The position numbers and the translations under genes are program-made. From contig JAKULF010000003.1 of assembly GCA_022661535.1 (NCBI GenBank), positions 3,596,001-3,660,000 of the forward strand: 64,000 bases of DNA, given 5' to 3'. The notes beneath the pieces are model-generated. The model was not told where the DNA came from and searched no databases. It saw nothing but the letters and a program-made list of their open reading frames with translations. Of the stretch, positions 6,046 to 51,160 are shown piece after piece. The DNA is from Eutypa lata (lineage: Eukaryota > Ascomycota > Sordariomycetes > Xylariales > Diatrypaceae). Numbering within the stretch: the stretch's first letter is position 1; every line of letters begins with the position of its first letter.

Positions 6046-7053
6046 TTATGGGCCTTCGACCCGAATGACCAACTTGCCCCTTGTGCGCCCGACATTGAGC
6101 TTGTCGTAAGCTTCCTTGACCTGATTGAATTCGAATACACCATCAATGATGATCTTGTCCTTTGGCAGACTCAGGATCTCCTCCAAAAAGGTGGAATTGA
6201 ACTCAAGGTTGACGCAGGTGTACGAACGACCAAGACCGACTCTCCCGAGAATGGCGCGCAAGAGCATCTGCGGGTTCCAGAAATAAATATACCTTCCACC
6301 CGGTGCTGCCCGGTCTGTTTTGTCGCCAACGACAGTCACGTATCTGCGGGCGATTCCGAGACATTCCGTCCCCCCGACAAAATCAATAATGGCATCAGGA
6401 GCAAACGCCTTGACCCCTTCGGGGACGTTAGCAGTCGTGTAATCAATGATGTTGTCGGCGCCCATGTCGCTGACGAACTCCGCATTGCGACCAGAGCATG
6501 ACGCCGTCACCGTCCAGCCACGTTTCTTCGCCATGTAGACGGCGTACATGCCGCAGCTGGAGCTGCCTCCCAGGACGACAACCTTCCCATTTTTGACGTA
6601 AGGTTCGATCTGGGCGATGGTCGTTCGAGCGGTGAGCCAGACGAGCGGGAGGGCAGCGGCCTGCTCCCAGGACCAATCGGTCGGTTTCCGCACCACGACA
6701 GATGCTTTGGTGTCGAGTCTGATCGCCTCCTGGAGAGTGCCCCCGGGGATGAAGGGGCAGATACCGAAGACTTCGTCACCGGGCTTGAAGCCAGAGTTGG
6801 ACCCTGCCTCTTCCACCACGCCTGAAAAGTCCTCGCCCACACCTTTGTGCAATGGAACCACGAAGTTGGGTAGGTGTGGTATCAGGGGATACGACATTAA
6901 CTGAATATCAACGGGGTTGATCGATGCGGCCTTGGTTTTGACACGGAGCTCTGATGGTTTGAGTAGCCCTTTATCAGAGGGAAGTCCCGACTGATGTAAT
7001 GCTTTCGGGTAGCCTCCATGGGTCCATGTCCAAGCCTTCATCTCCCCACTCAT
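6046..7053 (-). CDS. Stand-alone MDR enoyl/quinone reductase (zinc-independent)
   Basis: A single-exon frame of 335 residues with the architecture of the medium-chain dehydrogenase/reductase superfamily. It has an N-terminal GroES-like half (GEDFSGVV at 73-80 and PGDEVFG at 91-97) and a Rossmann half with a nucleotide-binding loop GGSSSCG at 162-168. The Cys/His zinc ligands of true alcohol dehydrogenases are not evident, as expected for quinone oxidoreductase-like and trans-acting enoyl reductases. Such enzymes reduce C=C bonds with NADPH. FAS beta in this cluster already carries its own enoyl reductase domain, so a role on a later unsaturated intermediate is more likely than chain elongation, but that is inference. 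It is convergent with the upstream oxygenase gene. Confidence 0.85.
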   Translation of the reverse strand: MSGEMKAWTWTHGGYPKALHQSGLPSDKGLLKPSELRVKTKAASINPVDIQLMSYPLIPHLPNFVVPLHKGVGEDFSGVVEEAGSNSGFKPGDEVFGICPFIPGGTLQEAIRLDTKASVVVRKPTDWSWEQAAALPLVWLTARTTIAQIEPYVKNGKVVVLGGSSSCGMYAVYMAKKRGWTVTASCSGRNAEFVSDMGADNIIDYTTANVPEGVKAFAPDAIIDFVGGTECLGIARRYVTVVGDKTDRAAPGGRYIYFWNPQMLLRAILGRVGLGRSYTCVNLEFNSTFLEEILSLPKDKIIIDGVFEFNQVKEAYDKLNVGRTRGKLVIRVEGP

Positions 7054-8990
7054 ATTGGCGATAGATTACGGGTAAATTAGGTGAACCTGAGTATAACGTA
7101 CATCTGATGGTTTTGGTGTGCTGCGAGAGTGAAGAGAAGGGTTGAATCTGCACGATATTTGCTTATATACATACATTTTGAGTAGGCAGGTATGTAGGTA
7201 GGGTGAGTAGGGCAGGTAGGTCACAGATTACAAACCACATTCCAATTACCTAGTTCAGCTGGGTGGATACATGAAGTTTTGTAAGCACGATTACCCAAGT
7301 AATTACTTGTATATTAGACGCGACAAGGTCTCACTGCAGCAGGGGGCACCTCAGCTGAGTTCCAATAACAAGGCGACGGGGCAACTCGAAGCCGTTAGGA
7401 CCCACTTCCCCTTGCGCTGAAGGGATTCGGCTGCCGACGCCCGGAAACCTTATTTTCGAGTAGAAGTATGGAGGTAACATCATCAGTTAGGACGTATTAC
7501 GTGATCAATGTTCGTCAGGCATTACAACGGAAGCAGATCTGCACATAAAGGTATTACTATACCCGCCTCCCTCAGATGCGTATTTTCACCTTGTTTGCCG
7601 CACTTCGTTTCGGCCAAGAGTTAGCGATGTGCGGGGCAACTTCCAACGCAATACGCATCAACTATTTGTCAAGTTTAACCTTCCTCCATCTTTGTTACTT
7701 TAAGAGTATAGGATCAATTAAATCTTAGTATCGTCTATTATTATGGGTATAAATCTTAACTGTAGGCCTCATGACTCACGGTGTGATGGACTCTCTTGCA
7801 CTTATAATGGAATAGAAAGATTATGGGGTTCATTTCATTCTAACAACATGGAAATACAACTGGCGTTAGTTTGGATCATCTATCCTTTAGCTGATGGGGA
7901 TAACAAGCCTTTGTCCTACTATGCACCATGCAGCTGAAAGAAAGCCTTGCTTAGAACAATATACATAGCCAGTACACTGATGCTTAATAGGGCTCGGAGG
8001 TGAGATGAAGGTTCAGTATCTAGCTTCAGCCTGGGAAGGCTACTATTATACTACCCTGACCAATGGCTGCGCCGATACCTTTGCATAAACTCCGCCCTGC
8101 ACCTGAATAAGGACCGGATGCTATCCCGGTAAGACCACCGCCACATGGGACCCCTGATTTGCCCAACGTTGAATGCCAATCGCCATTGAATCTGACTGTC
8201 GCCGTCCTGTAAAGCCAGGTCACTAAGGTAATAGCGTGCAGGGAGTCACACTGCTCTACATGCTATTCCGATGAGTACATGCCTGGTTCTCTTAGCAGAT
8301 TAATTGGTTTGTCGGCGCCTATATTGACCTCCCATATATCATAACTAATATTACATCAAGGCTTCTTATTAGGTAATGGCTGTAGCTATACCTGGACTGA
8401 CTCAGGTTAGCCGCGCCTTTGAACCGGTTCACATCTGTCTCCTGAGCCTCACAGATTGGCGCTGGATGGTGGCGGCCACGGTGACCGCAACTGTGGCCTT
8501 TCTGAGCCCCACAGATAGCTTGAGTGTCGCGTGTTGGTTACCCTGCCTGCTGTGACAAGACAAGATTTCCGTGTTCTAGACTTAGCCAGGGGGAAGAGGG
8601 GGTTTGCCTTGGTCTGCTAGATTCGACGACACGATATCCGCTGAAGTTGGGGGGGGAAACGGAGAGAATGATATAGTGGATCTGTGACAACACCACTTTG
8701 TAGGTGAAAATAATGTAGTAATATAAGTACAGTTAGCAATCGATCCGTTGTTTACACACACAGACAGAGGCTAATTAACCTACCCGTAAGTCAATGTGTT
8801 CTCTCCGGGACGATGGATTTTCGAGGCTCGGCCGCCGAGCCCGAGCCCTACTACATCGGCATTCCAAGTGATAAAAGTATCAATTGTCAAGCATTACGTA
8901 GGCCTCCAGCGATGCTAGCACAGCACAATAAAATAACATTGAAGTCTACGGTACTGAAAACGGGGCAATAAATGCGACTAAGCTATCAGC
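7054..8990. other. Intergenic between reductase and MFS relic
   Basis: No gene is supported. The part next to the reductase start (about 7060-7250) is the likely reductase promoter and contains a G/T-rich tract of imperfect GTAGG repeats at about 7180-7225. The rest holds only short frames without motifs. Confidence 0.5.
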
Positions 8991-17901: not shown

Positions 17902-19063
17902 GATTAGATCAAGTTTGATGTCTGCGCCAGAGGCGTATTTTATTTGGGGGCATTCAAGGGATAATAAATATCATATCTTCTATAAGTTTATAACATGAAA
18001 TAACTTTTACCAAGATGAATAGAAGAAAGGCCTTGCAATGTGGAACGTGAAGCGGGAGGCACGAGTATGGAGTCAGAATATATTGGTATCGGTAGCCAAG
18101 CCTTACTCCTGTACTATTGGCTCGTTCTTATGTTCTTATTGTTGGGTTGAACATAGTTGATATCTTGTCAGACGGCATCGCCTTCGTATAGTACACAAAA
18201 TAATCCATGTAGAATTCGGTCGGCGCAGATGTCGTTATCCACGATTCAACAGTCATAACAGGTTCATGCTCCTTGTTGCTATTCCAGTAAGCCGGTGTTA
18301 ATGGCCGAGGAATGGTATCCATATTACATCTGTATGCTGGTAGTAAGCAAACCGGCCGGACAAGATCAAAAATGATAATGTGAGAAGGAAGTCAAGCAGC
18401 CGTGAGTCGTAAACGTTTGTGGGTCGCCATGCCCGAGTGTCGCGTCCGGGGTCCGAGCTCCGATGACACTGGGCGAAGTTGCGCGCCCCTGAATTCAATC
18501 AAAAGCATGTGATACGGGTGAAATGCAAACACGAGGTCCGCTAACCACTGGCGATCACACAAGCTGACTCCCATGGTCACTTCTGCAAATAATAGCAATT
18601 TTTGAGGATATCGTGGCCGTAGGAGATGCATAGTGTAAAGTTACACAAACTTCAAAATTTATCACGAATGTTAATTGATAATCTTATAAAAATATTAACA
18701 TCTTGTCAAGTTAACTAATTATATTGGTTTGTGAGACTTTACATTCTGTTATACTACATTTTAATTTCTCTCTGAACAGCATTCTGAACTGTGGGAGATT
18801 GACCGCCGCAGAGGCAGATATTAACCAGGAGCCATATTCGCAGCACAGTCCACTACACATATAGTTATATCACACTATACCAGGCAGCACTCTATTCTCT
18901 TTCGATCTACTGAAGGGAGCATTCAACCTGTTGCTATAATCCGCTATCTCAACCACAACTATGTCTTTACGGGTGCGGAATGGGGCCATCCTTCCGGTAA
19001 GTTCAGCAATCGTTACCAAAGCTCTGAGGTGAATTTCACTTTGAACCGCTTTGAATAACTAAG
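17902..19063. promoter_or_regulatory. Divergent promoter region upstream of FAS beta
   Basis: This interval of about 1.1 kb lies between the FAS beta start (leftward) and the dehydratase relic (rightward). It contains a CGG-N3-CCG palindrome at 18447-18455, the kind of site bound by dimeric Zn2Cys6 regulators, and the cluster encodes such a protein. An ATG at 18961 followed by a good donor (GTAAGT at about 18997) may be the old first exon of the dehydratase relic. The factor-site link is inference. Confidence 0.35.
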
Positions 19064-19705
19064 GTCTGTCACTAATTCGAGATTTACATCTAGAAACAGA
19101 CAACGTCGGTAGCATCTTAGCAACCGCAGACTTGCCCAGTCGCGATGCGCTTGCGCGCGGTGATGCCGAGACAGGTGTTGCGATGCACCGCGTGTTATAA
19201 GCGATGATCAAGGCATACGAAATCTAAGGCTGCTGGAGATGCTTGCAGTAAGTCGATTGCTTCTGAAACCATTCTCATCATCCTTCATACATATGGGCTT
19301 TTACCATACTCTCCATAAAATACAGAGTTCATCCTACCGCGGCCGTTTAAGTGTTAGGTGGTAGAGTTAGGTGGTAGAGAACACTGTGTTCAAGATAACA
19401 ACGGCCGAGGGGTATGCACTTCCAGGCGTACAGGCTTTGTTAGAATTAGTCAAACAACTTCGACAACTGGTCCTTGATGTCTTTGACATCAAGATCATCC
19501 GCTCGAGGACTCAGATTCCCACTTTGATTATCGTGAATAAACAAGACCCGCTGAACAATACTGCAGACTGAGATCACTGCCTGCGGTATATGGTAGCTCT
19601 TATGTTGCTAAAAGGTGGTGAGGTGAGAATTGGTGGTTACCCGGATGATAGTCGTTGTGGAGGCTTCAGTGTTCGGGTTATTGAAAATCTCTTCCCCTCC
19701 CCTTA
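19064..19705 (+). pseudogene. Broken MmgE/PrpD-family 2-methylcitrate (alkylcitrate) dehydratase
   Basis: Two blocks of PrpD-family sequence survive. The first (about 19085-19254) reads through the family motif DN-G-ILA-AD-SR and the helix AMIKAYEI-G; two TAA codons sit in it where CAA is expected. The second (about 19371-19660) contains GYALPGVQA, a stretch resembling the family's IRTQE..I..K.GPL.NPADRDHC segment, then YMVALMLLKGG; a TGA replaces the expected CGA in the NTAD-DHC segment. Between the blocks about half of the enzyme is missing, and N- and C-terminal parts are not recognisable. All three stops are explained by C to T changes, two of them in CpA context. In alkylcitrate pathways this enzyme dehydrates the citrate-synthase product to the alkylaconitate, so its loss should change the pathway's end product. 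Confidence 0.82.
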
Positions 19706-25630: not shown

Positions 25631-28600
25631 ATGGTTTCAAATCTTTCACGCACGGGCAAAAATGCCCACCAACCCTTATCGGACCAGTACCTTGGCTATA
25701 AGTTATTAATCGAGCTCATGGCGTATGCATAATCTCTCGTGGGTCTTCGTCGTTGAAATAATAATAACAAGCTGACACGCGTATTTCGCTTTATGCAGGC
25801 ACCAGTTTGCATTCCCAGTACAATGGTAAGGATCTACATAGGATATATTCGTCCTTATCAATGACTAACTATTATATTCTGCGAAAACAACAGGATAGAC
25901 ACACAAAAGGAGCTTCTAGGAGGTAAAAAGGATGCACAACGGATCATTGAGATCGGACCCGCCAACGTTCTGACCTCAATGGCCAAGAAGACGGCAAACA
26001 AACTCGTCGGTGACAAGGATCAAGCCCAGGCAAATGTGCGTGAGTTCTTGTTTATCGGGAATAATGACGATGCGAGAAACATAAGATTTGAGTACGATAG
26101 CATGCCAGCACCTTCAACATCGGAGGGTCAAGATGACAACAAAACGTCTTCCAACGAACTACCACCTGCAGGGAACAATAATAGAACACCTGCCATAGCG
26201 GAAGTTGCCCCTGCCCCTGCCCCTGCTCCTGCACCTACCCCTATAGCTCAACCACTTCCACCATCCGGATCTCAGGAGGTGGTGGCGGATGTCGATATTA
26301 CGCCGACGGATATCATCCTTTCTATAGTCGCACAAAAGCTTCGAAGAGGTATCGAGCGAGTTCCTGTCAACGACTCAATTCGTACGCTATCTGCTGGTGA
26401 GTTTAAGCCCCTGATTATGTTTACTACCTCTTCCTACAGTTTCGGCGGAGTGATAAAGTAGCACCGGTAGTTGATTTATGATCTAACACAAAACAGGCCA
26501 GTCTGTTCTTCAGAATGAAATCATCGGCGACCTGTCTGCCGAGTTCGGGGATCTACCTCAAGGGAGTGAGGAGCTGCCCATCACGGAAATCGGCTCTAGA
26601 TTGTCGTCTTCGGGCTTCTCTGGCACACCCGGAAAGGTCATGAAGAAGCTAATGGAGCGCATGTTCAGCTTAAAAATGCCAGCGGGCTTCAGCAAGGCAG
26701 AGGCCGAGTCGCTGTTGCTAGCACGCTGGGGTCTCGGTCCCAAGAGGCAAATGACCGTCTTGTGCTTGGCTGTCACTATGGAGCCGGCCTCCCGCCTGGG
26801 AGACGCGGAGCAGGTGCGGGAGTTCCTTGCTTCGGCTGTTGCTCGATATGGAGTGCATGCTGGAATCTCACTGCCCGAGCGGACGGCCTCTGTTAGTAAT
26901 ACTGCGGATGGGGGCGGATCCTCTGTGGTGGTGCAAGTGGACGCTGCCAGTCTTGATGCTTTGAGAAAAGATCAGACCACCTATTTGAGGAAGCAGTTCC
27001 AGCTGCTAGCTAAACATCTCAACATTGATGTGTCATCCGATGCCGCAAATGCGGATGTACACAGCGAGGAACTGTCTGAGTTGAGGGAAAAGCTGTCAAA
27101 TTTGCAGATGGAACTCGATGAGGAGTTCATGCTAGGTATTCGAGGCGTCTTTGATCCTAAGAAGCAGCGGCGGTACGCATCTTGGTGGAATTGGGTTCGG
27201 GAGGACATTCTGCGCCTCCTGCACTCACCTGAGGACAGCGATGTTAATGATAATAATGATGGAACGTCCATTTTCGCATCCATCCTCTCTACAAGACATC
27301 TAAATTCACTTATCAACCGCTGGGATCCAGCCGTCGAAACGATACTACGACAATATTCCAAGTCCGGCACAGGGGTAGCCAAACGGATTGCAGACCACCT
27401 GCTAGATTACCATCGCACCTTAGTCAACACAGAGAAATTCCCGGCATCACCCGCATTTCGCTATTCACAGCCAGCTATGCGCCCACGCTCCTTCGTAGAT
27501 GACGCAGGTCAGTTCCATTATGAGGAGGTGCCTCGGGGTCCAGGCTCTGAAGCCGACTATCTCAACGTCGTGAGCAGTCACCAACCCCCGCACGTCCATC
27601 TGCGCAGCCGGAAGGATGGAACATGGCAATTCGACACGAATCTCTCACAGATCTACTTGAGCGCGCTCTCAAAGGGACTCGGTTCAGGACTCAACTTCTC
27701 TGGCAAGGCGGTCTTAGTAACGGGAGCAGGACCGGGGTCAATTGGTTCGCATCTCGTGCGTGGGCTCCTGGAAGGGGGTGCAAAAGTTATTGTCACCACC
27801 AACCGTGCCCCATCCAGTGCTGCTCCGTTCTTCAATCAGATGTACAAGGAGAGTGGTGCCCAAGGATCCGAACTTATCGTCCTCCCGTTCAATGCCGCTA
27901 GTGCGCGGGACTGCCAGGATCTCATAGCTTACATCTATGACAAAAGCAAGGGCCTCGCCGCTGATCTTGACTTGGTCATTCCCTTCGCCGCAGTGCCTGA
28001 GAATGGCCGAGAGCTAGACAAGATCGATGCTAGATCAGAGCTCGCACATAGAGCTATGTTGGTTAACCTCTTGCGCTTGCTAGGCTGCATCAAGCAAGCC
28101 AAAGAACGAGGCGGGGTTTCAGGCAGGCCAGCAACTGTAATTCTCCCCCTGTCCCCCAACCACGGCGACTTTGGGGGCGATGGTCTCTACTCCGAGTCCA
28201 AACTCGGGCTAGAAACACTTTTTAATCGCTTTCACTCCGAGAGCTGGTCGGCGTACATCTCCGCTGTCGGGGCTGTCATCGGCTGGACGCGAGGAACAGG
28301 ACTGATGGATGCCAACGACGTAGTCGCACAAGGTGTCGAGGACCTAGGGGTTTTGACATTCACAGCTCAAGAGATGGCCTTGAATATCTTGGCACTGTGC
28401 TCTCCCAAAGTCATCACCCTTGCACACCAAGGACCGGTTTATGCGGATATTAGTGGTGGTCTTCTTGGATTCGAACACCTCAAGGAGAGCATCCTGTCCA
28501 TTCGTGCCGACATTGCCACGAGGCGAAGTATAAACCAAGCTATATCGGAAGAGAGAGCGAGGCATGATTTAGTACTCTCTACCTCTTTTAGTTCTAGTGG

Positions 28601-30875
28601 CGGCCCAAATTCGCAGGTCGACTGGAAAAAGCCACGTTCAAATATCCGCCAGGACATGCCTATGCTGCTGTCGCACGCTGACATGACACGGGGCCTTCCT
28701 AACCTCAAGGGCATGGTCGACCTTAGCCGCACCGTAGTAGTGGTCGGGTTCTCCGAGCTGGGACCGTGGGGATCCTCTAGAACCCGGTGGCAGATAGAAA
28801 GTCAGGGCCAGCTGAACCAGGACGGCTTTACAGAGATGGCGTGGATCATGGGCCTTATCAAGCACGGCAATGGCATCGTCATTGACGGGAAGCCGTACTT
28901 TGGCTGGATAGACAAGGAAACCAAGCAAGCTGTACACGATGCCGACATTGCATCCCGATACGGCGAGCACATTATGAGCCACGCGGGAATCAGAACAGTC
29001 GAGTCGGTGAAAGGGAATCCACGCGATTATGACCCAAACAAGAAGGAGCTCCTCCAGGAGGTTGTCCTCGATGACGATCTGCCGCAATTTGAGGCTTCCG
29101 AATCCGTCGCCAAGTCCTTCCAGACTCGCCATGGAGGTAAGGTGACGATAAGTCCTACGTCGTCCAAGCCTGATAGCCCGTGGACAGTAGCCCTGAAGAA
29201 GGGGGCAACTTTTCACATCCCCAAAACAGTGCCATTCCACCAGACGGTGGGAGGCCAGGTACCCGACGGATGGGACCCCGCCACCTACGGGATCCCCGAA
29301 GACATCATCGCGCAAGTCGACCCGGTCACGCTCTACACGCTGTGCTGCGTGTGCGAGGCCACGTACAGTGCCGGTATCGAGGATGTATCCGAGCTGTATG
29401 AGCACATCCACGTAGCCGAGCTCGGGAACTACATCGGGTCGGGGGCGGGCGGCCTCCAGGCGGCGCAGGCCATGTACCGCAACCGGTACCTAGAGGAGCC
29501 GGCCAAGAGCGATATCCTGCAGGAGACGTTCCTCAACTCCATGGCGGCCTGGACAAACATGCTCCTCCTGGGGTCGGCGGGTCCCATCAAGACGCCCGTG
29601 GGCGCGTGCGCCACCGCCGTCGAGTCCCTCGACACGGCCTGCGAGGCGATCCAGGGCGGGCGTGTCAAGGTGGCCTTCGTCGGCGGCGTCGACGATTTCG
29701 GCGAGGAAGTCTCGTACGAGTTCGACAGCATGAAGGCCACAGTCCACGCCACCAGGGAGGAGGAAAAGGGTCGGCTTCCGTCCGAGATGTCCCGCCCCAT
29801 GTCTTCTTCTCGCGCGGGGTTCATGGAGTCCGCCGGGTGCGGCGTCCAGCTCGTCATGAATGCCGAGTTGGCGCTGCAGATGGGTCTGCCCATCCGCGCC
29901 ATTATAGCTTACACCCAGATGTCGGGCGATGGCATTGGTCGTTCCCTACCAGCGCCAGGACGCGGGGTCCTGACCGCTGCGAGAGGTGCACCGGCTAGTG
30001 CTGGCTCCTCTCCCTTGATGGAGCTGGAGTACCGCCGAGCCAGAGTGGGCGATGAAGTAGCACAGATCAACACATGGCGTCATTCACAATCTGAGAACAG
30101 AGGAAGCGCCACGGTAAAAGACAACAAATCCACTGCACCTGCCTCAGTCGCCGACGCCGCGGCCGCTCGTCGCATACAAGACGCTCAATGGATGTGGGGC
30201 GGAAACATGCGCGCGCTCGATGCCTCGATGTCGCCCATGTGTGCAGCGCTGAGTGCATGGGGCCTATCAATCGACGACATCAAGGTGGCCTCGTTCCACG
30301 GCACGTCGACGAAGGCGAACGACACCAACGAGAGCCAGCTAGTCAACGACCAGATGCGGCACCTAGGACGCAAGGCCGGGAACCCGCTCCTGGTCGTCTG
30401 CCAGAAGTACCTGACAGGTCATCCCAAGGGGGCGGCAGCGGCGTGGCAGCTCAACGGCTGCATGCAGATGCTCGAGTCGGGCATCGTGCCGGGGAACCGA
30501 AATGCGGACGATATCGATGTGGCGCTGCGGGAGTTCGAGCACCTCGTCTATCCATCTAAAGCTGTTCACTGCGGCAGCGGTGGGAAGGACGGTGTTCACA
30601 TGATAAAGGCGTGCATGCTGACTTCGTTCGGCTTTGGTCAGAAGGGCGGGCTTGTCATCGCTGTGTCACCACGGTTACTGTTTTCCTGCTTCACTTCAGA
30701 GCAATATGGAGACTACCAGAGGAGTGTTGAGCGTCGCCGCTGCCGCATCGATCGCGCGTATCAGTTAGCAATGATGGATAGTACTGTGTTCAAGGCCAAA
30801 GACCATTCGGCATGGGTAGATCGAGGGAAGGAGGACCGCTCAGCATTTTTAGACCCAAACGCTTTCTCAGTCTAG
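25631..30875 (+). CDS. Fatty acid synthase alpha subunit, secondary-metabolism type, without PPT domain
   Basis: Four exons (25631-25722, 25799-25825, 25894-26396, 26497-30875) close in frame to 1666 residues; exon 2 is only 27 bases. The N-terminus holds the strand that completes the malonyl/palmitoyl transferase. A Pro/Ala linker leads to the acyl carrier domain, whose Ser210 sits in GQSVLQNEI. The ketoreductase has VTGAGPGSIG from about 615 and YSESK (Tyr772). The ketosynthase has Cys1245 in GACATAVES, His1475 in FHGTSTKAND and His1516 in TGHPKGA. The protein stops where the C-terminal phosphopantetheinyl transferase of housekeeping FAS alpha would begin, as in HexA/StcJ-type subunits. It must therefore be activated by a separate transferase. 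Together with the beta subunit it should release a defined medium-chain acyl group. Confidence 0.94.
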
Positions 30876-31405: not shown

Positions 31406-34400
31406 TTATGCCAAATCCGACTTCCCCTGCGTGAAAAAGTCTTGCCAATTTTCCAGCCCGTAAAAGCCGCATCCTGTAGTTGTCGTTCGGCCCATATGCC
31501 CTCCTCCTTCACCTCCCTCCGTCATCCCATCGAGAAATGAGACCGTCGACTGACCCTTCGTCGGGTCGTACATGCCGCCTAAATTCCCCACCCCCAGCTC
31601 TGATGAGCATGGCGTATACATCCCATTAGAACTTGTGGAAGTCATATGTTGTTGGTGTGATCCAGGTGCTTGTGCTTGTTGATGCGGCTGTAGTATTGAG
31701 GGTAAATGTGGCCAGCTCGATCCTAGTAGACTGCTGGTAATGGTACTGGCGCTGACGCCAGCAGGAACTGACAGCTCTCCTGTCTGTGACCCCATCAAAA
31801 AGGCTTTCTTTGTCTCCTCAAGTACCCGAGTTGCCCATTCCAGCCCCTGTCGGATCCGGTTGAGGTAGGTGCTTGGACGATCAACGTTTTGTAAGCCCTG
31901 CAATAGACGGAGCACAGAATTGAACAGTTCAATATCACTTTCGACATCGTCGGACTCGCTATGCGCAGTATCGCTGCTAGGTCGCGTGCGACTTGGGAGG
32001 ATCTCGTCCAGATGGAAAGCGACGAGATCCATAAACGCGACCATAGGGTAAGCCCCCAGTGCCCGGCTCAGCAAAGCTAGTCGCGCTTTGGCAAAGTGAT
32101 TCGGTGTTGGCAGAGTACTATCCTCCATGCTCCCCATCTCTACGATCAGTCGTAGGGAAGTTCGTGCGTGGTGGCGCATCTGCACCTGGGATCGCTCATT
32201 CTTGCTTCGATCGCATCGGAGAATCAAAACGTGTGTGACGTAGTAGCAATATCTCAGCTCAAGCTGTAACGATACCAATTCATCAACTTCATTTCCACCT
32301 AGACTATGTTGTATATTGGATCCAAAGAGGCTCTCTCCCAAGGAGGAACGAGACGCAGTTGTCTCCAGGACCCCGGGGTGGTGTTCACTCCATCTAGTTA
32401 AGAGTTGCATAAGACCTGCCACTTGACTTGATAGATATGTCGCACCTGCTGCGATGGCCCGAGCAGAGTATAGTTTCAAGTATACCTCTTCCCAAATCAT
32501 CATCATATCGTCCATCGCAGCAGTGAGTCTCCGACTTGGCGATTCGACCTCACCTGATTTCGTTTTCCATAAGTCAAGGTCCGAGTCGAAATGGTAAAGA
32601 TCGCAGGGGTCGCCAGTTAGAAAGACTCGTTGCTTATCTAAGCCGTAGAGCACTCGAAAGATACGTTCTCCTTCACTGAAACTCTCACCGAATTTCCTGT
32701 CGTGGGTCTTCGATAGATGCAGTCCTAGCGTGCGACTGACGTGGCAGGCTGTTTGTAATACCTTCTCGCAAAGGGTATTGCTATAAAACTGCTGTGCTAC
32801 GAGAGCCTAACAGAGCACGACATGCATGAGGCGCTTAGAAATATGTTCTCTAGAACGTGAAAGAAGTGGGATATAAGTGATTATGAGAACTTACCAAAGT
32901 TAAAAGAGTCTGGACATTAAGAATATTTGGACGCGTATAAGGGGTTAGGTCGGCGAGTGCACGGTCGCAGTTGCGAAGGAATGAGGAGATGAGATCCTCA
33001 GTCAGCAAACTCGCACTAATTGAAGAAGGTCCCGCCCGGCTACCTTGCCAGCGTGCGACTTGGGTTTCCAGGTCAAGTTCCAGCAGAGCGATGTTGGTGA
33101 ATATGAGAGCCCAGGGGTTGTCAGCAGGGTGCTCGCGGATTGGTAGCCCCGACGACGGAGTTGATGACGATGATGACGGCATGTGAGATCTACCTGAATA
33201 ATAGATATCTACAGCTTCGCGGAGGCTTCTTTCGTCAAAAATGGGTATCCGAACGTTAATGTTTCGCAGGAACCCATCAATAAAGAGGCATGTGATCAAC
33301 TGAGGCGGAGCAACGACAGGCAGCCTGTCGCTAGAAACAACGGGTTGAAGACATTTCCCCTGAAAGGGGAACATCTCTAGCTGATGAAGCATAATTGCTC
33401 TTGTCGAAGCGGCTGTAGAATAACCTGCCCTGTCTCCGTTGATTTCCAAATCTGGAACTTGACAGCTACCAGCTATCTTCCTTGATATCGACTTGAGTAA
33501 TGCCATTGATGCCGGGTTTTTATATGTGCGTTGACCCCCATGCTCAAGCTCAACTCTCTCGGTGAGAAATCCATCTTCACTGATCGGTGTCATCTCTCCG
33601 ACCATCTCAAGCCTCGTTTGACCCAGTTCATGCTGCGAGCTTGGTAGAAATAGACTCGGCCAGGTGTTCCCTAGCCCTGGACTCTTTTGCCGGCTGGAAG
33701 GTGTATTTGAAGGTGATGGGAAAGCGTCTAGTGCCTCATTGCCGTGTTTACGGGATGGGTTTAAACTCGAACATGGCACCGGATGAGGGCGTGCAGCGAA
33801 TTGTTTAGTCAGCTGGGTCAGCGTACCCAGCGTCTCATCAATCTCATCTAGACGATATAATACGCTTGAGAAATCATTCCGCCTATATTTTCCTTTTATC
33901 GTCAGTTAAGTTTACTTCACCAAGCAGCTCTTGGACTGCTGTTTTTCAAATGACATTGAGAAGATAACGAAAATCAATGGTTGGGTGAGGATGTGCGCAC
34001 TTCCATGGTCGTCATCCGAACTCCACTCTTAAGTAGAAAACAGTGGCAATAAGGAACGAATATAGGCGAAACCGGCACAGATCAAAGGGAATGACAGTTT
34101 AGAAATGGATTATATACTGAAGGAAAGGTTCGGACTTGCAGTTGTTTTGTATGGTTCACCCGCTTGAAATTGCTTGTCTGGTTACACGCAGTGCCGGCCT
34201 TCCGGCAGTTGGAGCAATCGGGCTGCTGGCGGTCACACCGAACCTTGCGGATCCTGCACTGGTCACAAGCAGACAAGGACAAGTTGGAAGACGAGCTCTG
34301 CGGGTCATTTTGGCGTAATCTCGGGCGCTTGCGGGACTCGCTGCTCGGGCCCTGGGTGTTGTTCGCGGGAGGCTCTTCAAGGCCAGTACCATGCCGCGAG

Positions 34401-34510
34401 TTCGCGTTTCCTTGCGATGCGACATCATTATTGTCTGATGAGTCTCCTCCTGCCTCAGCATCTCCTCCCCCTTCAGGAGAAGCGGCGCCACCACGTCGAG
34501 ATTTGGGCAT
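31406..34510 (-). CDS. Zn2Cys6 fungal-specific transcription factor (likely cluster regulator)
   Basis: Three exons (34140-34510, 32895-33882, 31406-32806) close in frame to 919 residues. I chose the ATG at 34508-34510; the frame extends upstream only through a TTG. The binuclear cluster has Cys at 82, 85, 92, 99, 102 and 109 (C-X2-C-X6-C-X6-C-X2-C-X6-C), preceded by a basic stretch. A fungal_trans-type middle region spans the second and third exons, including the ALVAQQFYSNTLCEKV segment. The first intron uses a GC donor (GCAAGT at 34134-34139) and ends at 33883, and only that choice restores the frame. The C-terminal part is rich in Gln, Ser, Gly and Thr, like an activation region. Its place beside FAS alpha suggests pathway control. 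Confidence 0.88.
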
Positions 34511-37500
34511 CTTTCTTGCGCTCAAACGAATACGGCTGGAATAAATCGGAACCTATAGCAATAGTTAACTAGGTAGATGGGCTATCTTTTAGTCCCTCTC
34601 TATATTAATACAAGCAGCCAGACTAATTCGTCTTGGCATCTTCTTCTCCCCCCTCAGTACATAGCTTGTAGAAGCTGGCATCAAGAGCCAAGAACAATGT
34701 TGTAGCTGGCTTACTTCTACTTCCACTATAGCTGCGAGTGAGATGACTGATGGATGTGTTGATGGTCAATTGCATGTAAAATGAGCCATGCAAGGGTCGT
34801 TCTAAAAGCCGTTTTCACCGGATCCACATCCCATTCGATACATATCCCCCAGTATTTCATATATGGAATATAAGCATTTGTAAGCTACTTACTTCGTACC
34901 ATAGCTACTTAAGTATATTCAGTATTTTTTACGAAGTAAACTTCATATGATAAATACCGTACATATAACAAAGTAGACTTCATATGATGAGTACCGTACA
35001 TACCACGGGTTACTATTAGATGTACTTAGAGGACACCTGCGCTTAGCCATGATAAAGACTGCGGTAGTGTATCTTATTGGTCGTAGAGAATAACCACTCC
35101 GTTGCCCTCTTACTGATATCACGTTTTCCGGATTGCCAAGAATGTTGTTTTGAGACATCATGGTGCCCTACAAGTAATATCAATGCGGCCACCACACGGT
35201 CCTTATGAATGAAGGATCTTTAGGGCTTCTGATCGGCATACCGTTTTCGAGGCCGTCATACAAAGATACCTCATACGAATAATCCAACATGAGCAAAGAT
35301 ATTATAACTGCAAGCGTCAGCTTGTTATAACTATACTACCAGATATCTTGGCGACATTCTGAAGATCGCCTACGTATAAGCTTAATATTTTGCAAAGGGG
35401 CACGTACATCTCGCATCCTGCATTCCTGATCATGGCCTTGGCTTCCAATGTTAGCCAATTAAGGCCGCGATTTAACACGAACCTAAGCTTATTAATGACA
35501 GCCTTATCCCGTACGGTAGCGGATGCGATCTACCTTAGTATGGGCAGTAGTCGATCCCTGTTCTTCGATGCCCCAATCGGCGTTCAAAGCGAACTCTCAG
35601 CCACCGCTATAATCAACGGTATAATGAGCAAGGAATGGGTAGGGCTGTAAGGCAACTGTGATGTGTGTCGTCGTGATTGAATGTATATGCACCTCTCGGT
35701 CGTAACATTGGTGATGTAGGCTACTATCTTCAGTTACATAAGAAAGAGCTATCAACGAAAAAGTTGCGAGATACGACTGCAGCTGACAACCGGAGGACAG
35801 ATCGCAGGCAGGCCGGCAATCGAGGATGCTTCGTGCTTTTGCCACATAGTCTCACCTCAGATTGGATATCTTCAGTGCTTGTTAATTATGGGATAGGTAA
35901 GATATTCCGAGGGCGTCAGAGATCCAAGACATATCCGATAACAGTTCGGTAACATATTGCGTTTCGTTCCCTATTTGACCATAAGAATTCACGTTGATAG
36001 GTGACACTCCGGGCTCTGAGTCACTCGGCATGATTGGGTGCATCTGTGGAAGAGCATACAATTATTATATGAAAGTCCTCGAAAAAGACGAATAAATTAG
36101 AGGCTATGTGCGAACACTCATTATCCAAATTATGCTAGAATTATACATCAATACGAAACGTACAATCATCAATAGCAATTGTCATTTGCTTGACAATATC
36201 ATGAGTCACTAGCAATGCTGTTATTCACCTCTTCTCTCGGCATTTGCTACGCAGAAGATAGCACGAACCAATCGCGTGCTTGACAACGTTACAATCATAA
36301 CCTTAAACAACGCCTCTCCCGAAGCCATCTTGGCACTTGGTACTTGCCTGCATGTAAATCAATAATAACGCGTCTGGTACTTCTTCTGAACTTCCTGCAT
36401 CAAAATGAGCTGTGGTATATTCATAATTACTTATTAGTATTGGTATGTTTGACTGAACCTGTCTGCTTCAGCTCTATTCCATACTGCTTCCCTAAGCACG
36501 GTCGAAGATAGTCGAAAGCACAATCTTTCATGTTAGCCATAGGGTAAAGGCGCAATTATCACTTGGCAATGGAAATGATCACTGTATTGTAACACTACAC
36601 CAATCATGCAGTGAGAAAAGGCGCTTCACGCAGGTGCATTTAGATTAGATCAACCAATTAAACGTGCTCTCCCTCCTGGCATTAGCTGATTAGTTGAGAA
36701 CGCCATCATGGGCGCTTAGTAACTACCAAAGTAGGACTGTCGTCAGACATAGTCTAGAATATATATTAACCCGCGCAACTAATCACTTGGCAATCAGAAA
36801 CTACCACCAACCATATGACCTCAGTTGGACAAAGTCAGGTAAATAACCACGATAAGTTCCTAGAATGGCCTTATTCCAATCCCCTTGGTAAGGTGGTGAT
36901 GGTGGGTAAGACGCGTGTGAGATTCTTACGTGAATTCTAATATCGGGGTTGACCATGTCATATGTGAAGGACTCGGTTACCCCCGGATCGGCGCCTTTAG
37001 TGCAACTGATTAGAGCCTCATGCATGCCATCCGAAGACGGAACCTTATGGTGAAAGTAAGGGATTTCTAGATGCTACCTAAGGTCAATAGTCCGTGTATC
37101 CACGGCCTCAGTAGCCACTCGCATCTGATGATGCAACCTCGAAATCAGCTTTACATACCAATTCAAAGTTCACGTTATCAGCTGATAGCTTGCTTATATA
37201 GTAATCACGTTTACCTGCCACGACACTACACCTCCCTTACAGAAACCTCCCCTCTTATTGAAAACCTGTAGCTTACCTATCATCATAAGGCAACCAAAGG
37301 AGTCTTCAAAGCATGAATCGTATAATTGATGCCTGCATTAGAAGCCTAGGATTGATAAGAGGGTGCTAGTATTGTCACATATCATATCATAAATCATGAC
37401 TACTTCGTATGTAATACATAGTGAATCGTCTATGAGACCACAGCTAGGATAGGGGTATACTTAATATTTTCCACAGTCAGACGAATATATTGGAGTGGGC

Positions 37501-39144: not shown

Positions 39145-40667
39145 TCACCACTGCATCTGTTTTCTCGTCGAGGGGGGTTGGTAGTCAACATCATCGCCTC
39201 CACCCTCCTCGACGTAGATATCAGTCTTCTTAACGATATGTTGACGGCTTGAGTTGTCGTCATCCAGTCGGTCCCATCTATGCCCAGTGTCATCGCGTGG
39301 TTTTCCCTGGGGCGTAAGCGAACCGAGTTGCGTGCCGACTCTGAAGGGTTTCTTCTAAAGCACGGACATGGAGTATTAGCAACATGCATAAACTTGCAGG
39401 CACTGTACATCTAAGTCTCTACTTACGTCATTTGTAGAGTTGTAGTTATTGGAGTTGTAAGCACCAGCACTCTGCTCTTTTGATTGGTCTGTAGAGCCCT
39501 TGAAGAAGTTCTTGAATAGCAGACGCAGCGGCGGCAGCGAGCACGCAGTGATGCCTATCCCGCACTCCATACTCGACATGAAAGCCATCTGGCCAGCGTG
39601 ATCTACAGTGACAGTTAGCCTGTGTCGTCATCCCAATATAACCCCCCCCCTTTATCTTGTTTCTATATGTTTGATGGACATCAAGCTTCCGTGGGTTGCT
39701 AGACTTACACAGATAGTCATCGGGGTACGCGGCTTTGTCGTAGTATTTGTAGAAAGGCATACGAACGAGGGAAATAACACTCGCTAGGATTCCCAGCATC
39801 AAAACCGCTAGAAGCGACACCTTCCTCCGCCGGGTCATCTGGAGATTCTTTACAACGAAGAAGGGCATAATCGCACAAACCCAGTCGGTGATGACTTGCA
39901 CAACAGACCCAAAATAACTGATGATGATAAACCCGTTGCCTGGCAAGCAAGTCCCTCTGTGAAGTAGGAAATAAACAGAATCAGCATCCATGATCCTCCA
40001 GATATGAATGAAAAGGAGGGAGGTTAGAATGTGGAGAAAGGGGCTGAGGTAACATACAGAAGCGGGTTATAATTCGCCTTAAAAGGCTGGCAATTGACAA
40101 ACACAAAAACCAGACATGCAATTGATGTCAGGGTCTGAAAAATCCAGTTGATGTGGGTGACCCAGCGAACCCATGCCTTGTTGCTAAACAATCGTAGCAT
40201 AGTGAACGCGATGGCATTTTTGGTAATAGTTGACGAGATGTAGTACAGGATTTGGAAGTAGATCGTGTATTCACCCGCTCTAATCAGCTTGAGCGTGTTG
40301 AGTTTGTCATCCTCGGTGCCGAGTCCGTAGTGCGTGGCCATAATACCGAAAGTGATAGTTGGAATGTACGGGAGCTAGCATATATAGATAAGTAGTCTGT
40401 ATGTCACAAAACCCAAGCTCAAAACTTTTATTGAATCGACTTTTGACTCACGTAGCCCAGCATTGCGAGATAGTCGTCTACGCCCCATGTTCGCCCCCCG
40501 CTCATGACGCCTCGTGCGTATATTCGTAAGCCGATGATGATGGATGTAGTGATGCCTGCGAAGTACATCCAAACCCCTATCGCGAGGGCAAGTCCTTCCG
40601 GTTGTATGGGCGGCTCAGCGTATGCGAGAGCAGACAGCTCCTCGCCGGACATTTGACCAGACGCCAT
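39145..40667 (-). CDS. Rhodopsin-domain (SAT4-like) seven-helix membrane protein
   Basis: Five exons (40452-40667, 40058-40374, 39709-39956, 39427-39602, 39145-39354) close in frame to 388 residues. It has the layout of the large fungal family of integral membrane proteins with a rhodopsin-like domain. There is a hydrophilic N-terminus, a first helix ending in LRIYARG, then WGVDDYLAM, two Asn-containing helices, the C-terminal-half motif ECGIGITACSLPPLRLLF and a charged cytoplasmic tail. The family is common near secondary-metabolite and secreted-protein genes, but its biochemical role is poorly defined. It lies 4.6 kb beyond the regulator, so it may be outside the cluster. Splice sites are canonical throughout. 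Confidence 0.87.
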
Positions 40668-44456: not shown

Positions 44457-44580
44457 TGTGGGTGGGTCACGTGATTCGGTCATTAGATAGGTCTCCCCAT
44501 TACTTAGCTTAGCAAAGAGATACTTAAAGAAGAAAACCACAATTATACCTTTATTTTTATTTTGTTATTATAATATTTTT
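44457..44580 (+). repeat. Left terminal direct repeat (LTR-like), 124 bp
   Basis: It aligns without gaps over most of its length to 54725-54848. Visible differences are transitions (C/T, G/A), and both copies carry derived-looking T or A bases. It begins TGTGGG. The edge is uncertain by one base because the flank reads AGTATT on both sides. Confidence 0.8.
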
Positions 44581-47500
44581 ATTAATATATAAAAATAAGA
44601 TTTAAATAATTAAACCTTGCGAATCGTTTTAAAAACTTATTTTATTATTTAAAAATTAAATAAAATATTTATATTTTAATTACTTTTTAATTACTTAAAG
44701 AAATATTAAAATTATCGTTTTTATTTTCGTATTAAATTTTTTAATTTTATACGATTTCTTTAATTAATTAAATTAATTTATATTTTAAATTAATCGGAAA
44801 TTATATTTATTTATTTTTTAATTTTTTTATTAAAAAATTTATTATTTTAAAATAATTAAAAATCATTTATATATTTAATTATTACGATATAAAAAAACGA
44901 AAAAAAGTCGAGAAAATTTTTTTTTTTTTTAAAATAAAACGCATTTATTATAAGCAAAAATTAAATTTTTAATTTAAATTCTTTTCTTTTAATATTAATT
45001 TATATTACCTTAAGTTTATATAATACTTTTTATTTTATTTATATATTAAATCGATATAATTACCTTTAAAACTTTTTATTTATTTATTTTAAATTATTAT
45101 TTATTTTATTTTTATTAAAATAATTTAATACTTTTTATTTTTTAATTAAAAAAAATTATAATTATTAATTATTATAAAACGAATTATTAATTATTTAAGT
45201 AATTTTATAAATTATTATTTTTTTTATTATATATATTATAACTTTCGTCGTAAATTTTAAATTTAAAACGATTTTAATTAAAGCATTATACGTTATTTTA
45301 AAATATTTAATTAAAGTTAAAAAGTTTATATAAATAATTAAGAAATACAAGAGTATTTTAATTACTTTTAAATCGATAATTTAATCTATTAATTTTTTAA
45401 AATTAACTTTCGAATTAATAATTTTATTAACTTTTATATTAACCTTTAATAATATTTTATTAGTTTTTAAATTATTTATTATTAAAATAAATTAACTTAT
45501 ATTTAAAAGATTTTTAAAGAAATTCTTTAAAAAGTATATTAATAATTTAAAGTTATATATAAAAAAATTAAATTTTACGATAAAAAAAAAATTAAAAAAA
45601 TTAAACTTTGTTTTTTATTTAAAAATAATTTATAAAATAATATAAAGTTTTAATATTTATAATTTTTTAAATTTAAATAAATAAAATATAATTTTTTAAA
45701 ATTTAACTTTAATAAAAGATTTTTTATTTAAATAAAAACGAACGATATTAAATTTGCTTTAAGAATTAATAATTTTAAACGTTAATTAAAAAAAAAGCTT
45801 TTTATTTTTATAAAACGAATTAATAAGTTTTTTTAAAAAACTAATAATCGTTAATTAATAAAGCTTTAAAATTAAATATATAAATATATATATTTAAATG
45901 AAAATTATAAAAATAAAACTTTATAAAATAAAGTTATTAATCGCTTATTTATTAAAAATAAAATTAATAATATTAATAAAATAAATAAACGTTATACGTT
46001 TTATAATATAAAAAATATAATTATCTTTTATAAAATAATATTAAGTTAAAAAAATAACTTTATTAATAAAGTTAAAAAATATATTAAAGGAATTAAATTA
46101 ACGATTAAAAATATAATTTATAAATTAAAAATAATAATTAAAGAAATAAAAGAAAATGAAATAATTTTAATTATATAAAAAGATTAATAATTTTAAACTT
46201 TAATTATTTTATTATTAAAAACTTTTAAATTTATATTTATTTTAAACGTTTAATATAACGAATAAATATATTAATTATTATAATAAATATATTCGATATA
46301 AACATTTTTAATAAATGTATAAACGTAATAAACTAATTAACGAAGTAAATAAAACGACGATTAACGAAGTTTAAATTTTTTTAATTAAAAAAGTATAATT
46401 ATTTTTTTTATTTAATAAGTTCGATATAACTTTAATAATTATAAAAACAAAGCACGTTTTATTTTCGTATATTATAATTATAATTATAAAAAATACGTAT
46501 TTTTTAATTATTTATATTTAAATTAATTATCTTAAATTACTTGTTAAATTTAAAATATTTATAATCGTAATAAATAAGTTTCGAAGTTATTAAAGTTTAA
46601 AAAAACATTAAAATTAATTAATGTAAAGATTAATTATATAGTTAAAAAAGAATTATAAAAACTTTTTAATTTAAATAAATATATAAATAACTTAAATAAA
46701 AAACCATTAAGTATTATTAAAAAATCGTTATTTTTTTTTATTATTAAGTTTATATAAAAGATTTAATTTATAATATTTTTTTTATATATAAATGTTAATA
46801 ATAATAAAAGTATATTTTAATAAAAGTTTATTTTAAATCGACGATTTTTTTCGTTTAATTTATTAATTAAGTTTTAATATAACTTTATAAATTTTTATAA
46901 ATTATTATTTAAGTTAAAAAAAATTAATTTTTTTAATTTTAATTTTATAAATATAAGCGATTTTATATAGCGCTTAATAAATGTTAAATTTCGTATACGT
47001 AAAAAGATTATAAAATTATAAAAATAAAGCGATATAATTTCGATTTACGTATATAAAGATTACGTTAAAAATTAAATCGATATAAATAATTTATTTTGTA
47101 TAACTTTTTTTTTAAATATTATTTAAAAATAATTTTTAAATCGAAGCTTAATTATAAAGGCTTAATTTAACAAGTAACTTAAGTTATTTACGAAAAAACG
47201 TAAGCTTAAAATATTATTAAAATATCGTTTTTTAATATTTATATTATATTTTACTTATATATATATTAATATAAATAAGTTTAATTTTATTAATCGAGTT
47301 AAAAATAATAATAATTAAATCTTTTTCGAATTTATTAATAAAAAAGTAAACGATATATTTATATATAAATATTTTATTAATTATAAATTTTTATTAAAGT
47401 TAATTAATTTTAATATCGTTATTAAATTAAAACTTAAAAAGCTTAAACTTCGAAAAGAATATAAGTTAAAAATAACCGATAATAATATCTTTTTAATTAA

Positions 47501-50500
47501 TTATTACGTAATTTTTCCTTTTATTATTAATAAGATTTTATTAATAATTAAAGTTTTTATTATAAATATAAATAAATTTTACGATTTATTATTAAGTAAA
47601 AATTAATTACGATAAAATTTTATCGATATTAATTTTAAAATTAAATGCTTTATTTTTATTAAAATTAATAAGTAATCTTATACTTTTTCGATAAAACTTA
47701 TGGTTACGATTAATTTAATTTTAATAAAAAAAAAATTAATTTATAAAAAAATAATTTGATTAATTTTTATAAAAAATATAAACTCGAAATTATTTAATAT
47801 AAAAAATAATAATCTTTTAAATAATAACGATTTAAATTTTAAAAAAAAGATTAAATATTATTATAAGTTAATAAAGGAATTGTTTAATATCGTTAAATAC
47901 GTTATTATATAAAATTAAAAATATTAAATTTAATTAAAAAATTAAAAAAAAACTTAAAATGAAGTTAAGCTTTTATAAATTATAATTTTATAACTTATAA
48001 TATTATTATTTAAGCTTAATTAAAACGAGTTATATTTATTAAATTTATTATTATTATTTTGAATTTTTTTATATTATTAATTTTTTATTTTTAATTTTTT
48101 AATTTAAAAAGAAAAATAAATCGTTATATTATTATTTTAATTATATTTATTTTTATTAAACGAAGTTTATTAAAAATAAATTTATAAATTATAAATCGAA
48201 TTTTTAATTTATATTTAAATGTTAATAATTAAACTTAAATATTTATTTAAGTATTTTTTTTTTATATATTAAAAAATGAATTTAATAAATCTTTTTTAAT
48301 TATTTTTTTTAATTTAAAATCGAAATCGTTAATAAAGAAAACGCTAATGATTTCTTTTAATAATAATTTATCTTTATTTTTTATTTCTTATATTATATAT
48401 TATAATTTTAATTATTTTATTTAAAATTTAAAAATTTTACGTTAAACGAAATTAATAATAAATTTACTTTTTACATTATTATATTTTTTTATAAATATTA
48501 TTAATAATTAAGATAAAATTAATTTAATTTTAAACGATATTAATAATAAAATATTAACTTTTAATATTATATTATATAATAAAAGCTTTAAAAAAAGTTT
48601 TAAATTTTATTTAAAAAACGAAAAGGAAATATTATATATAATTAATATAAATTTAAATTTATATAAACCAAAATTATAAATTTATTTTTATAAAGTTATT
48701 ATTAAATCTTTTATTATAACTTTTCGACTTTAAATTATAATTTAAATAAATTCGAAACGATTAATTATAAATTAAAGATTATAATAAAAACTTTTATTAA
48801 ATAACTTTTAATTTATAATTAACGATTAATTTAATAAATTTAAAATTACTATTAAATTAATAATAAATATATTAAAAAGATAAGCTTTAATTAAATAATT
48901 ATATTACATTTAATACGATTATTTTATTAAATCGTTTAACGATATTTAAAGTATAAATTTAATTAAATATTTTATTATTATTAATAAAAACATTAAGCTT
49001 TTTCGATTAAAATAATTTAAGTATACTTTTAATAAAAAGAAATTTATTAATAAAGTTTACTTTTAAATAAAAAAAGTTAAATTTATATATTTAAAGTTAA
49101 ATAAATGAAATATATACTTTTAATTTTCGTTAAAGAAAAATAAAAATCGTCGAATTGTTTAAAATTATAAATTAATTAACTTCGTTATAATTAAATTTTA
49201 ATAATTGATTTATAATCGAAATAATATATTTAATACTTTATTTTAAAAGAAATATAAAATTTTTAATTAAAATAATGCTTTTTATAAATATTAATTAATT
49301 AATATTTAAAAAATTAATTAATTTAAAACTTTATTTATTAATTTTAATAATTAATAATTTAATATTTAAATGTTATAAAAAATAATTAAATTAATATATA
49401 TATATTATATCTTAAATGATTTAAGATTTAAAAAATAGTTATTATTTAATGAAGCGGGAATTTAAGAATTAATATTATTTATATTAATAAGTTATTATTT
49501 CGGTTAAGGTATTTCTTTTAATGTATTTATTAATAATTATAACATTTTCGTTAAAAGTTTTAATAAAATGTTTAATTTTTTTTATTATTATTATTTTTCT
49601 TGCTTAAACTTTATATTTATTAATATAACATTTAAAAAAACTTTTTTATTTACGGATTTAATTAAGGTTTTAAGATTTAAATTTTTTTAAAGAAAAATTT
49701 AATTATCGAGTAAATATTAAAATCGATTTAAAAATTAATTCTTAATTAAAAATTATTTTAAAAATTAAAAGGAATTAAAGAAATTCTTTTATTTAACTTT
49801 TTATTTATATATTTATATATTTAATTATATAAATTTTATTAAAATCTTTAAAGACGTTTATATTAAATTTATTTAAAAAAAGATTTTTTTTAAAAAAAAA
49901 TTAATATAACGAAAGGTTATTTTAAAACTTTTTTTTTAAGAAAAGGCTTAAAAACAAGCATTTATTATTATATATTATAAAATTTAAGAGCAAGCTATTA
50001 AGAATTTAAATATTAATCAATAATATTATTTAATAATTAATATATCGTTAATAAAAACGAAAAGAATTTTCTTTTAACTTATTAATTAATTAATAAAAAT
50101 CGTTATAATAAATACGTTAATATTTTTAATTAATATTTTAATATTTCTTTTATTTAAGTTTTTAAACGTAAAGATTAAATATATTATTAAAGAAAGAAAA
50201 GCTTTAAAGATTATAAAGTGCTTTATTAAATATAAATAAATAATAATTAAATTACTTTATTTTATTATATTATATATCGATTATTTAAACTTTTTTTAAA
50301 TGTTTAATATAAAAATAAATATACATAAAAAGATTTTTACTTAAATTAAAAAATTAAATAAATATTAATTTATTATTTATTATAAATTAAATATTATTAA
50401 AATTATTAAAATTATAAATAAATTTTCGAAATTAATCGAATTTATTTATTAATTAATTATTAAATTCGATATTAAAAAACTTTTTTTTATTATATCGGTT

Positions 50501-50854
50501 ATGAAATAAATTTAAAAAAAGTTTTTTAATTAATTTAATTCTTAATCGATTTATATATTGTTTTTTTTCGAATTATTAAATAATAATGATTTTATAATTA
50601 ATATAATAAAAATTAAACGAATTTTTAAATTATTTATAAAATTATATATAAAAATTAAATAATATAACAATTTAATTTATTATTTAATTTTAAAACTTAA
50701 ATTCGTTAAATAATTTATTATTAATTAATAACGCTTATTTATTAAAAATATAATTAAATATTATATTATTAATAACTTTTTATTTTAATTAAAAAATAAT
50801 AATAATATAATAAAATATATTTTGCTTAATAAAATTAATTTAACTTTTTTATAA

Positions 50855-51160
50855 ATATACGATAAATATAATTATTATATTATAACAATTACTTTAAAAA
50901 ATTTAATTTATAATTTTTAATAATTTATATAATATTTAAATATTATTAAACATTATTAACGTTATTATATATATAATAAAATTAAATCGAAACTTTTTTC
51001 GATTATTAAATTAAAACGAATAATTTCGATAAAATTATAAAATTTAATCGGTATAAATTTTATAAACTTTTTCGCTTTCGTTAAAATAAATAAAATTAAA
51101 TATATATTAATAATAATCGATTATTTTACTCGATTTATATTTAAAATAATAATTAATAAA
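50855..51160 (+). pseudogene. Degenerate Ty3/Gypsy integrase core
   Basis: A near-continuous frame with a DKYN-type segment, an ITLKNL segment, a K-IKSK segment and then LIIIDYFTRF matches the order and spacing of Gypsy integrases from the zinc-binding region to the first catalytic Asp. Several in-frame TAA codons lie where Trp or Gln codons would be expected, as RIP produces. It cannot encode an enzyme now. Confidence 0.7.

Follow-up and report, generated by a model that had tools for sequence, protein, structure and literature searches.

The FAS-type alkylcitrate cluster analysed here contains the broken remains of a PrpD-family dehydratase gene beside FAS, citrate synthase and dioxygenase genes that are intact. 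Alkylcitrates comprise dehydrated compounds (aconitates, anhydrides, lactones) and undehydrated ones, and some of the latter inhibit squalene synthase and phospholipase A2, according to the available part of a recent report (PMC13178491). The enzyme family and its chemistry are already known; what is new is the fossil, that is, an FAS-type alkylcitrate cluster that has lost its dehydratase with its other core genes intact. Among the papers listed by a literature search, none reports a dead alkylcitrate dehydratase as judged by title. The available parts of the sources cited below do not take up dehydratase loss, and in the accessible text of PMC8851701 the word pseudogene occurs only within a reference. 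A gene list alone would class the cluster as simply lacking a dehydratase. A clearly dead dehydratase accompanied by otherwise intact core genes makes it testable how one alkylcitrate type evolves into the other. Our preferred reading, to which we assign a probability of about 60%, is that a cluster resembling akc and ory of Aspergillus lost its dehydratase yet kept working, and that it now yields an alkylcitrate that is hydroxylated but not dehydrated, in place of an alkylaconitate or anhydride.

The stretch of DNA analysed, 64,000 nucleotides long and hereafter referred to as the window, corresponds to C10:3596001-3660000 of a 54.5-Mb, 29-contig genome, and its genes mark it as fungal. The cluster spans 11.2 to 34.6 kb of the window and consists, in this order, of genes for FAS beta (minus strand), the dehydratase relic (plus), a TauD-type dioxygenase (plus), citrate synthase (minus), FAS alpha (plus) and a Zn2Cys6 regulator (minus). 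Genes for a zinc-type alcohol dehydrogenase (6049-7065, minus strand) and a fungal rhodopsin-domain protein (39449-40374, minus strand) flank it. The coordinates of individual features are collected in Table 1.

Table 1. Genes of the cluster and blocks of the dehydratase relic, in window coordinates.
Feature	Position	Strand	Basis
FAS beta, four exons, intact, 2119 aa	11234-17901	-	Pfam SAT, Fas1-AflB-like_hel, MaoC, acyltransferase; stop-free splice model
Relic block A, PrpD N-terminal domain fragment, AEWGHPS motif	18915-18995	+	tblastn with L001 residues 150-176, 48% identity; PF03972 jointly with block B
Putative surviving GT-AG intron of the relic	18997-19099	+	read from sequence: GTAAGT donor, ACAG acceptor
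Relic block B, PrpD N-terminal domain fragment, stops 19198 and 19225	19096-19236	+	tblastn with L001 residues 176-223, 44% identity
Relic block C, KSxAAGDAC fragment, other frame	19220-19258	+	tblastn with L001 residues 287-299; scores 0.2 bits by itself with a small profile, a weak match
Relic block D, PrpD C-terminal domain fragment, stops 19362, 19368 and 19569	19296-19690	+	PF19305, NCBIfam prpD, tblastn
13-bp perfect tandem duplication in the relic	19353-19379	+	Tandem Repeats Finder, 2.1 copies, 100% match
TauD-type Fe(II)/2-oxoglutarate dioxygenase, four exons, intact, 357 aa	20463-21856	+	splice model; Pfam PF02668
Citrate synthase (presumed alkylcitrate synthase), five exons, intact, 467 aa	23101-24841	-	splice model; Pfam PF00285, E 3.3e-58
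FAS alpha, ~1666 aa, open, exon 1 with two possible donors	25631-30875	+	Pfam ACP, FAS_I_H, ketoacyl synthase; splice model
Zn2Cys6 transcription factor, probable cluster regulator, three ORFs	31409-34552	-	Pfam Zn_clus, E 9.8e-11; Fungal_trans, E 3.2e-5

Two pieces of the relic, blocks A+B and block D, were queried separately in Pfam, NCBIfam and protein database searches. Pfam returned partial matches over its cut-off for both, to the N-terminal MmgE/PrpD domain (PF03972, E 1.2e-11) for blocks A+B and to the C-terminal MmgE/PrpD domain (PF19305, E 5.3e-12) for block D. The NCBIfam prpD model matched the two pieces with E 1.3e-18 and 4.6e-15; the scores lie under the full-length cut-off of the model, as expected since the pieces are fragments. 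A tblastn search of the window with the genome's own 2-methylcitrate dehydratase (L001, contig C5) hit the same site (E 9.4e-12 and 1.3e-7). The other two PrpD-family genes of the genome, L002 and L003, gave no match to the relic at E up to 50. By these tests, the relic belongs to the 2-methylcitrate dehydratase subfamily and is not cis-aconitate decarboxylase-like. By profile and sequence, the intact PrpD structures 1szq, 5mvi, 5mux and 6s62 (PDB) belong to the same subfamily as the broken copy in the window. Searching 5.8 billion proteins with blocks A+B yielded 26 candidates and two matches, a Steroidobacter 2-methylcitrate dehydratase (E 1.1e-9) and an unnamed protein from the source ena (E 4.4e-9); block D gave 139 candidates but no match at E up to 10. 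No fungal orthologue of the relic was returned by either search of this database. Judged by these comparisons, the homology of the relic to PrpD, recognised already in the initial annotation, is well beyond chance.

The relic occupies positions 18915-19690 of the plus strand, with blocks A to D collinear on that strand. The initial annotation had placed the gene at 19064 to 19705, and block A with its AEWGHPS motif thus lies upstream of the start then given. Removal of the putative intron between blocks A and B restores the Ser-Asp-Asn of the family; L001 has no intron here and reads through in one open frame. Blocks B and C are fused by a deletion of ~63 codons. Block D aligns with residues 322-426 of L001 at 36% identity, the tblastn match reaching 19616 and the small profile 19646, and from ~19646 to ~19690 the match was made by eye only.

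Measured against an L001 reference of ~486 residues, from which the presumed presequence was excluded by eye, the BLAST blocks cover ~192 residues, or ~216 when the block D extension made by eye is counted (~40-44%). The earlier estimate that about half of the enzyme is deleted is therefore sound. The missing parts are the first ~77 residues, a middle stretch of ~63, a shorter stretch of ~22 and the C-terminal ~108. A three-sequence profile run over all six frames of 17.7-20.5 kb revealed no convincing fragment of the missing parts; the single extra match (minus strand, negative score, E 4.5) was read as noise. Five in-frame stops fall within the matched blocks, at 19198, 19225, 19362, 19368 and 19569, of which 19362 and 19368 are inside the 13-bp tandem duplication, and there are also frame changes. 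The initial annotation had named a spliced transcript that avoids the stops and restores the enzyme as evidence that would overturn its reading. When splicing was modelled with at most four GT-AG introns, each 40-300 bp long, the best solution kept 146 of the 213 matched codons stop-free, or 136 if an ATG start was required, and none restored the enzyme. The relic does not encode an open, full-length protein; it is real and dead, a pseudogene. That a functional enzyme is hidden here by an assembly error or unusual splicing we consider practically out of the question: the window retains traces of less than half of the enzyme, the missing parts have no convincing fragment nearby, splicing brings back a part of the matched codons at best, and the genes flanking the relic, FAS beta and TauD, are both open.

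The initial annotation had attributed three stops to C-to-T changes in Gln, Gln and Arg codons. The stops were compared with seven relatives, namely L001, four PDB chains (1szq, 5mvi, 5mux and 6s62) and two database proteins (P0121 and P0122). Stop 19225 aligns with Gln in all seven, and stop 19569 with Arg in each of the six relatives that reach the site; both alignments fit the proposed change. In contrast, stop 19198 aligns with Glu (L001, 5mux, 6s62), Thr (1szq, P0121, P0122) or Ser (5mvi) and with Gln in none of the seven, so neither the expected Gln nor a C-to-T origin is supported at this position. Two of the five stops had been missed altogether.

A signature of RIP was also absent from the relic. 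Its composite RIP index is -0.28, with values of -0.34 directly upstream and -0.58 downstream, whereas the two AT-rich islands of the window reach +0.86 and +1.02. When the assembly was searched at the DNA level, with very common words skipped, no second copy was found, the one match being the relic itself. RIP is therefore not supported as the origin of the stops and was rejected on base composition and on the lack of a second copy in that search. Large deletions and otherwise ordinary decay are enough to account for the relic. The AT-rich islands themselves occupy 44500-54500 and 57500-64000 of the window at 8-9% G+C, with a stretch of normal G+C between them (~55.0-57.2 kb); one ORF of that stretch had no Pfam family match and three others had no NCBIfam family match.

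The condition of the neighbouring genes is different. All introns in their splice models are GT-AG. The cluster FAS beta aligns along the ORFs of its paralogue (C10). The alignment of FAS alpha (26487-30875) stops at residue 1527 of the 1670-residue primary paralogue ORF, making it ~143 residues shorter C-terminally; presumably the C-terminal phosphopantetheinyl transferase domain is missing. Across 4609 codons of FAS beta, FAS alpha, citrate synthase and TauD no stop was counted, versus 63-106 expected at the density of the relic (63 from three stops, 106 from five, with all sites treated alike). The count uses splice models chosen to be open, and two exons of ~5.3 and ~4.4 kb are open regardless. 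The absence of stops argues that the neighbours probably stayed under selection once decay of the dehydratase began. The initial annotation is supported in its view that the dehydratase expected in such a cluster is a pseudogene here, and that the FAS, citrate synthase and oxygenase genes beside it are intact.

The TauD protein is 79% identical to a protein of Cercophora scortea, and further orthologues come from Seiridium cardinale, Pestalotiopsis fici, Apiospora marii, Aspergillus lentulus and A. avenaceus. A tree of 59 rows was built from the best 60 of 120 listed matches, with P0007 and P0008 left out and the window protein added. On a terminal branch of ordinary length, the window protein falls in a clade of seven rows (support 100/100) with proteins from Cercophora, Seiridium, Pestalotiopsis, Apiospora and two Aspergillus species. 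A Cladobotryum protein named oryG by its source (P0060) lies outside this clade, so equivalence of the window TauD with OryG is unsupported.

These observations bear on the possibility that the whole cluster is non-functional, decay having simply reached the dehydratase before the remaining genes. A recently silenced cluster would appear just as intact, and a large, apparently RIP-affected AT-rich island lies ~10 kb from the regulator. Against this stand the open reading of the ~4609 neighbour codons and the TauD gene, which is intact, close to its orthologue and on an ordinary branch. We regard general decay of the cluster as rather improbable.

The genome contains one intact 2-methylcitrate dehydratase gene (L001, C5) and two other PrpD-family genes (L002 and L003). 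A genome search with L001, in which the best candidates were scored, gave four matches, three in L001 itself and the fourth in the relic. Since nothing but L001 and the relic was recovered, the cluster has no dedicated dehydratase that we could find, and L001, the sole intact gene of the subfamily to turn up in the 54.5-Mb assembly, has the look of a housekeeping gene. As to the second PrpD gene that the initial annotation had proposed to look for, the genome has a housekeeping-like enzyme and two more distant family members, and no second dedicated dehydratase was found among the candidates scored.

Because it shares its subfamily with the housekeeping gene, the relic could also be a stray copy of that gene which has decayed and was never a member of the cluster. 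Blocks A+B, however, are 46% identical to L001 compared to 50 and 55% for the two database 2-methylcitrate dehydratase-like proteins, and for block D the values are 36% for L001 and 40% for one of the two. The putative intron of the relic and the intron of L001 are at different positions, the relic has no DNA-level match elsewhere in the genome, and it sits beside FAS beta, where related clusters have their dehydratase as far as the available descriptions go. A stray housekeeping copy is, on this evidence, very improbable.

The initial annotation had also allowed for an unlinked dehydratase. This can now be narrowed, the candidates found being the C5 2-methylcitrate dehydratase and the two more distant PrpD-family genes. 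Dehydration would be kept if the housekeeping C5 enzyme accepted alkylcitrate, perhaps followed by an unlinked PrpD-family decarboxylase; in favour of this route, one intact 2-methylcitrate dehydratase and two more PrpD-family genes are present in the genome. L001 carries a long N-terminal extension that by eye resembles a mitochondrial presequence (putative), whereas FAS is expected to be cytosolic, which counts against the C5 enzyme acting on alkylcitrate. Unlinked tailoring has a precedent in the alkylcitric acid pathway of A. niger, where the available text places the decarboxylase gene on a different chromosome (PMC7338620). On the other hand, the akc, ory and spo clusters each carry a dehydratase of their own, according to the parts of the reports at hand (PMC7338620, PMC6162547, PMC8403587). 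We consider dehydration by an unlinked enzyme unlikely.

No second cluster combining FAS and citrate synthase was found when nine citrate synthase family matches were examined against the contigs bearing FAS beta (C10 and C2); only the window's own two citrate synthase matches, on C10, shared a contig with FAS beta. On the minus strand at C1:398001-399700 lies L035, a second citrate synthase relic, interrupted by several in-frame stops. It is nearer to the intact citrate synthase L006 (44% over 212 columns) than to that of the window (34%). A third FAS beta gene is present at C2:3210837-3211903 (L016 and L017); the genome yielded just two FAS alpha genes, which leaves the C2 FAS beta without an obvious partner.

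We return to the preferred reading, loss of the dehydratase from a cluster that kept working. The relic at 18915-19690 would be the former alkylcitrate dehydratase of the FAS-type cluster, a member of the 2-methylcitrate dehydratase subfamily that appears to have died through large deletions, frame changes and stops. FAS alpha and beta would supply the acyl chain, and citrate synthase would join the acyl-CoA with oxaloacetate to give the alkylcitrate, which the TauD-type dioxygenase then probably hydroxylates. By the logic of the ctr cluster, the end product is predicted to be similar to CJ-13,982 or the cinatrins. We infer in this way the activity of the cluster, the order of the steps, the product and the substrate of TauD. 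Of the two outcomes suggested in the initial annotation, a pathway ending at an alkylcitrate is thus the better supported, with ctr, for which the available text lists no dehydratase, as a characterised precedent; the product is a prediction.

Comparison with known clusters was made by gene content. The akc cluster of A. niger has five conserved genes, for FAS alpha, citrate synthase, a transcription factor, a 2-methylcitrate dehydratase and FAS beta, as given in the available part of the report; the dehydratase akcC (NRRL3_11766) and FAS beta akcD (NRRL3_11767) have consecutive numbers, as do FAS alpha and citrate synthase (PMC7338620). The window cluster contains counterparts of all five, the dehydratase as a relic, and is alike in the FAS alpha/citrate synthase pair and in the dehydratase position beside FAS beta. 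It differs in that the akc dehydratase is taken as working and leads to hexylaconitic acid, and in that the akc gene list, as far as seen in that source, has no TauD dioxygenase (PMC7338620). The ory (oryzine) and spo (sporothriolide) clusters share FAS and citrate synthase with the window, as described in the portions available (PMC6162547, PMC8403587). In ory there is a TauD-type dioxygenase, as in the window, and in A. oryzae its 2-methylcitrate dehydratase gene oryR flanks the FAS beta gene oryfasB, as the relic does (PMC6162547). Both ory and spo have decarboxylase and lactonase genes, of which none was detected among the ORFs scanned in the window cluster, and their dehydratases are taken as working in the sections consulted (PMC6162547, PMC8403587). 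The relic thus lies beside FAS beta in a cluster that has FAS alpha next to citrate synthase, as in akc and ory. Its orthology with akcC, oryR and the spo dehydratase is suggested by two points of agreement, subfamily and position. The sporothriolide and oryzine dehydratases are reported, in the text available, to form a separate clade (PMC8851701).

Pfam analysis of 35 window ORFs and three ORFs from the 10 kb upstream detected no FMO, transporter, lactonase or intact decarboxylase. Because these were not found among the scanned ORFs, the window cluster is by gene content neither ctr nor a complete akc, ory or spo cluster. The ctr cluster of Hypoxylaceae produces CJ-13,982 and, with a dioxygenase, cinatrins C1 and C3, and the available part of the report lists no dehydratase for it (PMC13178491). 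It resembles the window cluster in having the FAS pair, citrate synthase, a 2-oxoglutarate-dependent dioxygenase and a transcription factor, and differs in having an FMO (FAD monooxygenase) and a transporter (PMC13178491). In the window, both FAS subunits, the citrate synthase and the 2-oxoglutarate dioxygenase are intact, and the cluster has no working dehydratase. The ctr product is an undehydrated, hydroxylated alkylcitrate, as predicted for the window cluster, and no dehydratase relic is mentioned for ctr in the text available, whereas the window cluster has one (PMC13178491). It is conceivable, though in our estimate somewhat short of an even chance, that loss of the dehydratase is a route from alkylaconitate and lactone pathways (akc, ory, spo) to hydroxy-alkylcitrate pathways of the cinatrin/squalestatin kind. 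The window cluster would then be one caught after the switch with its fossil retained, and its TauD, which belongs to a class whose proposed role in the oryzine pathway comes after dehydration, would now act on the alkylcitrate itself.
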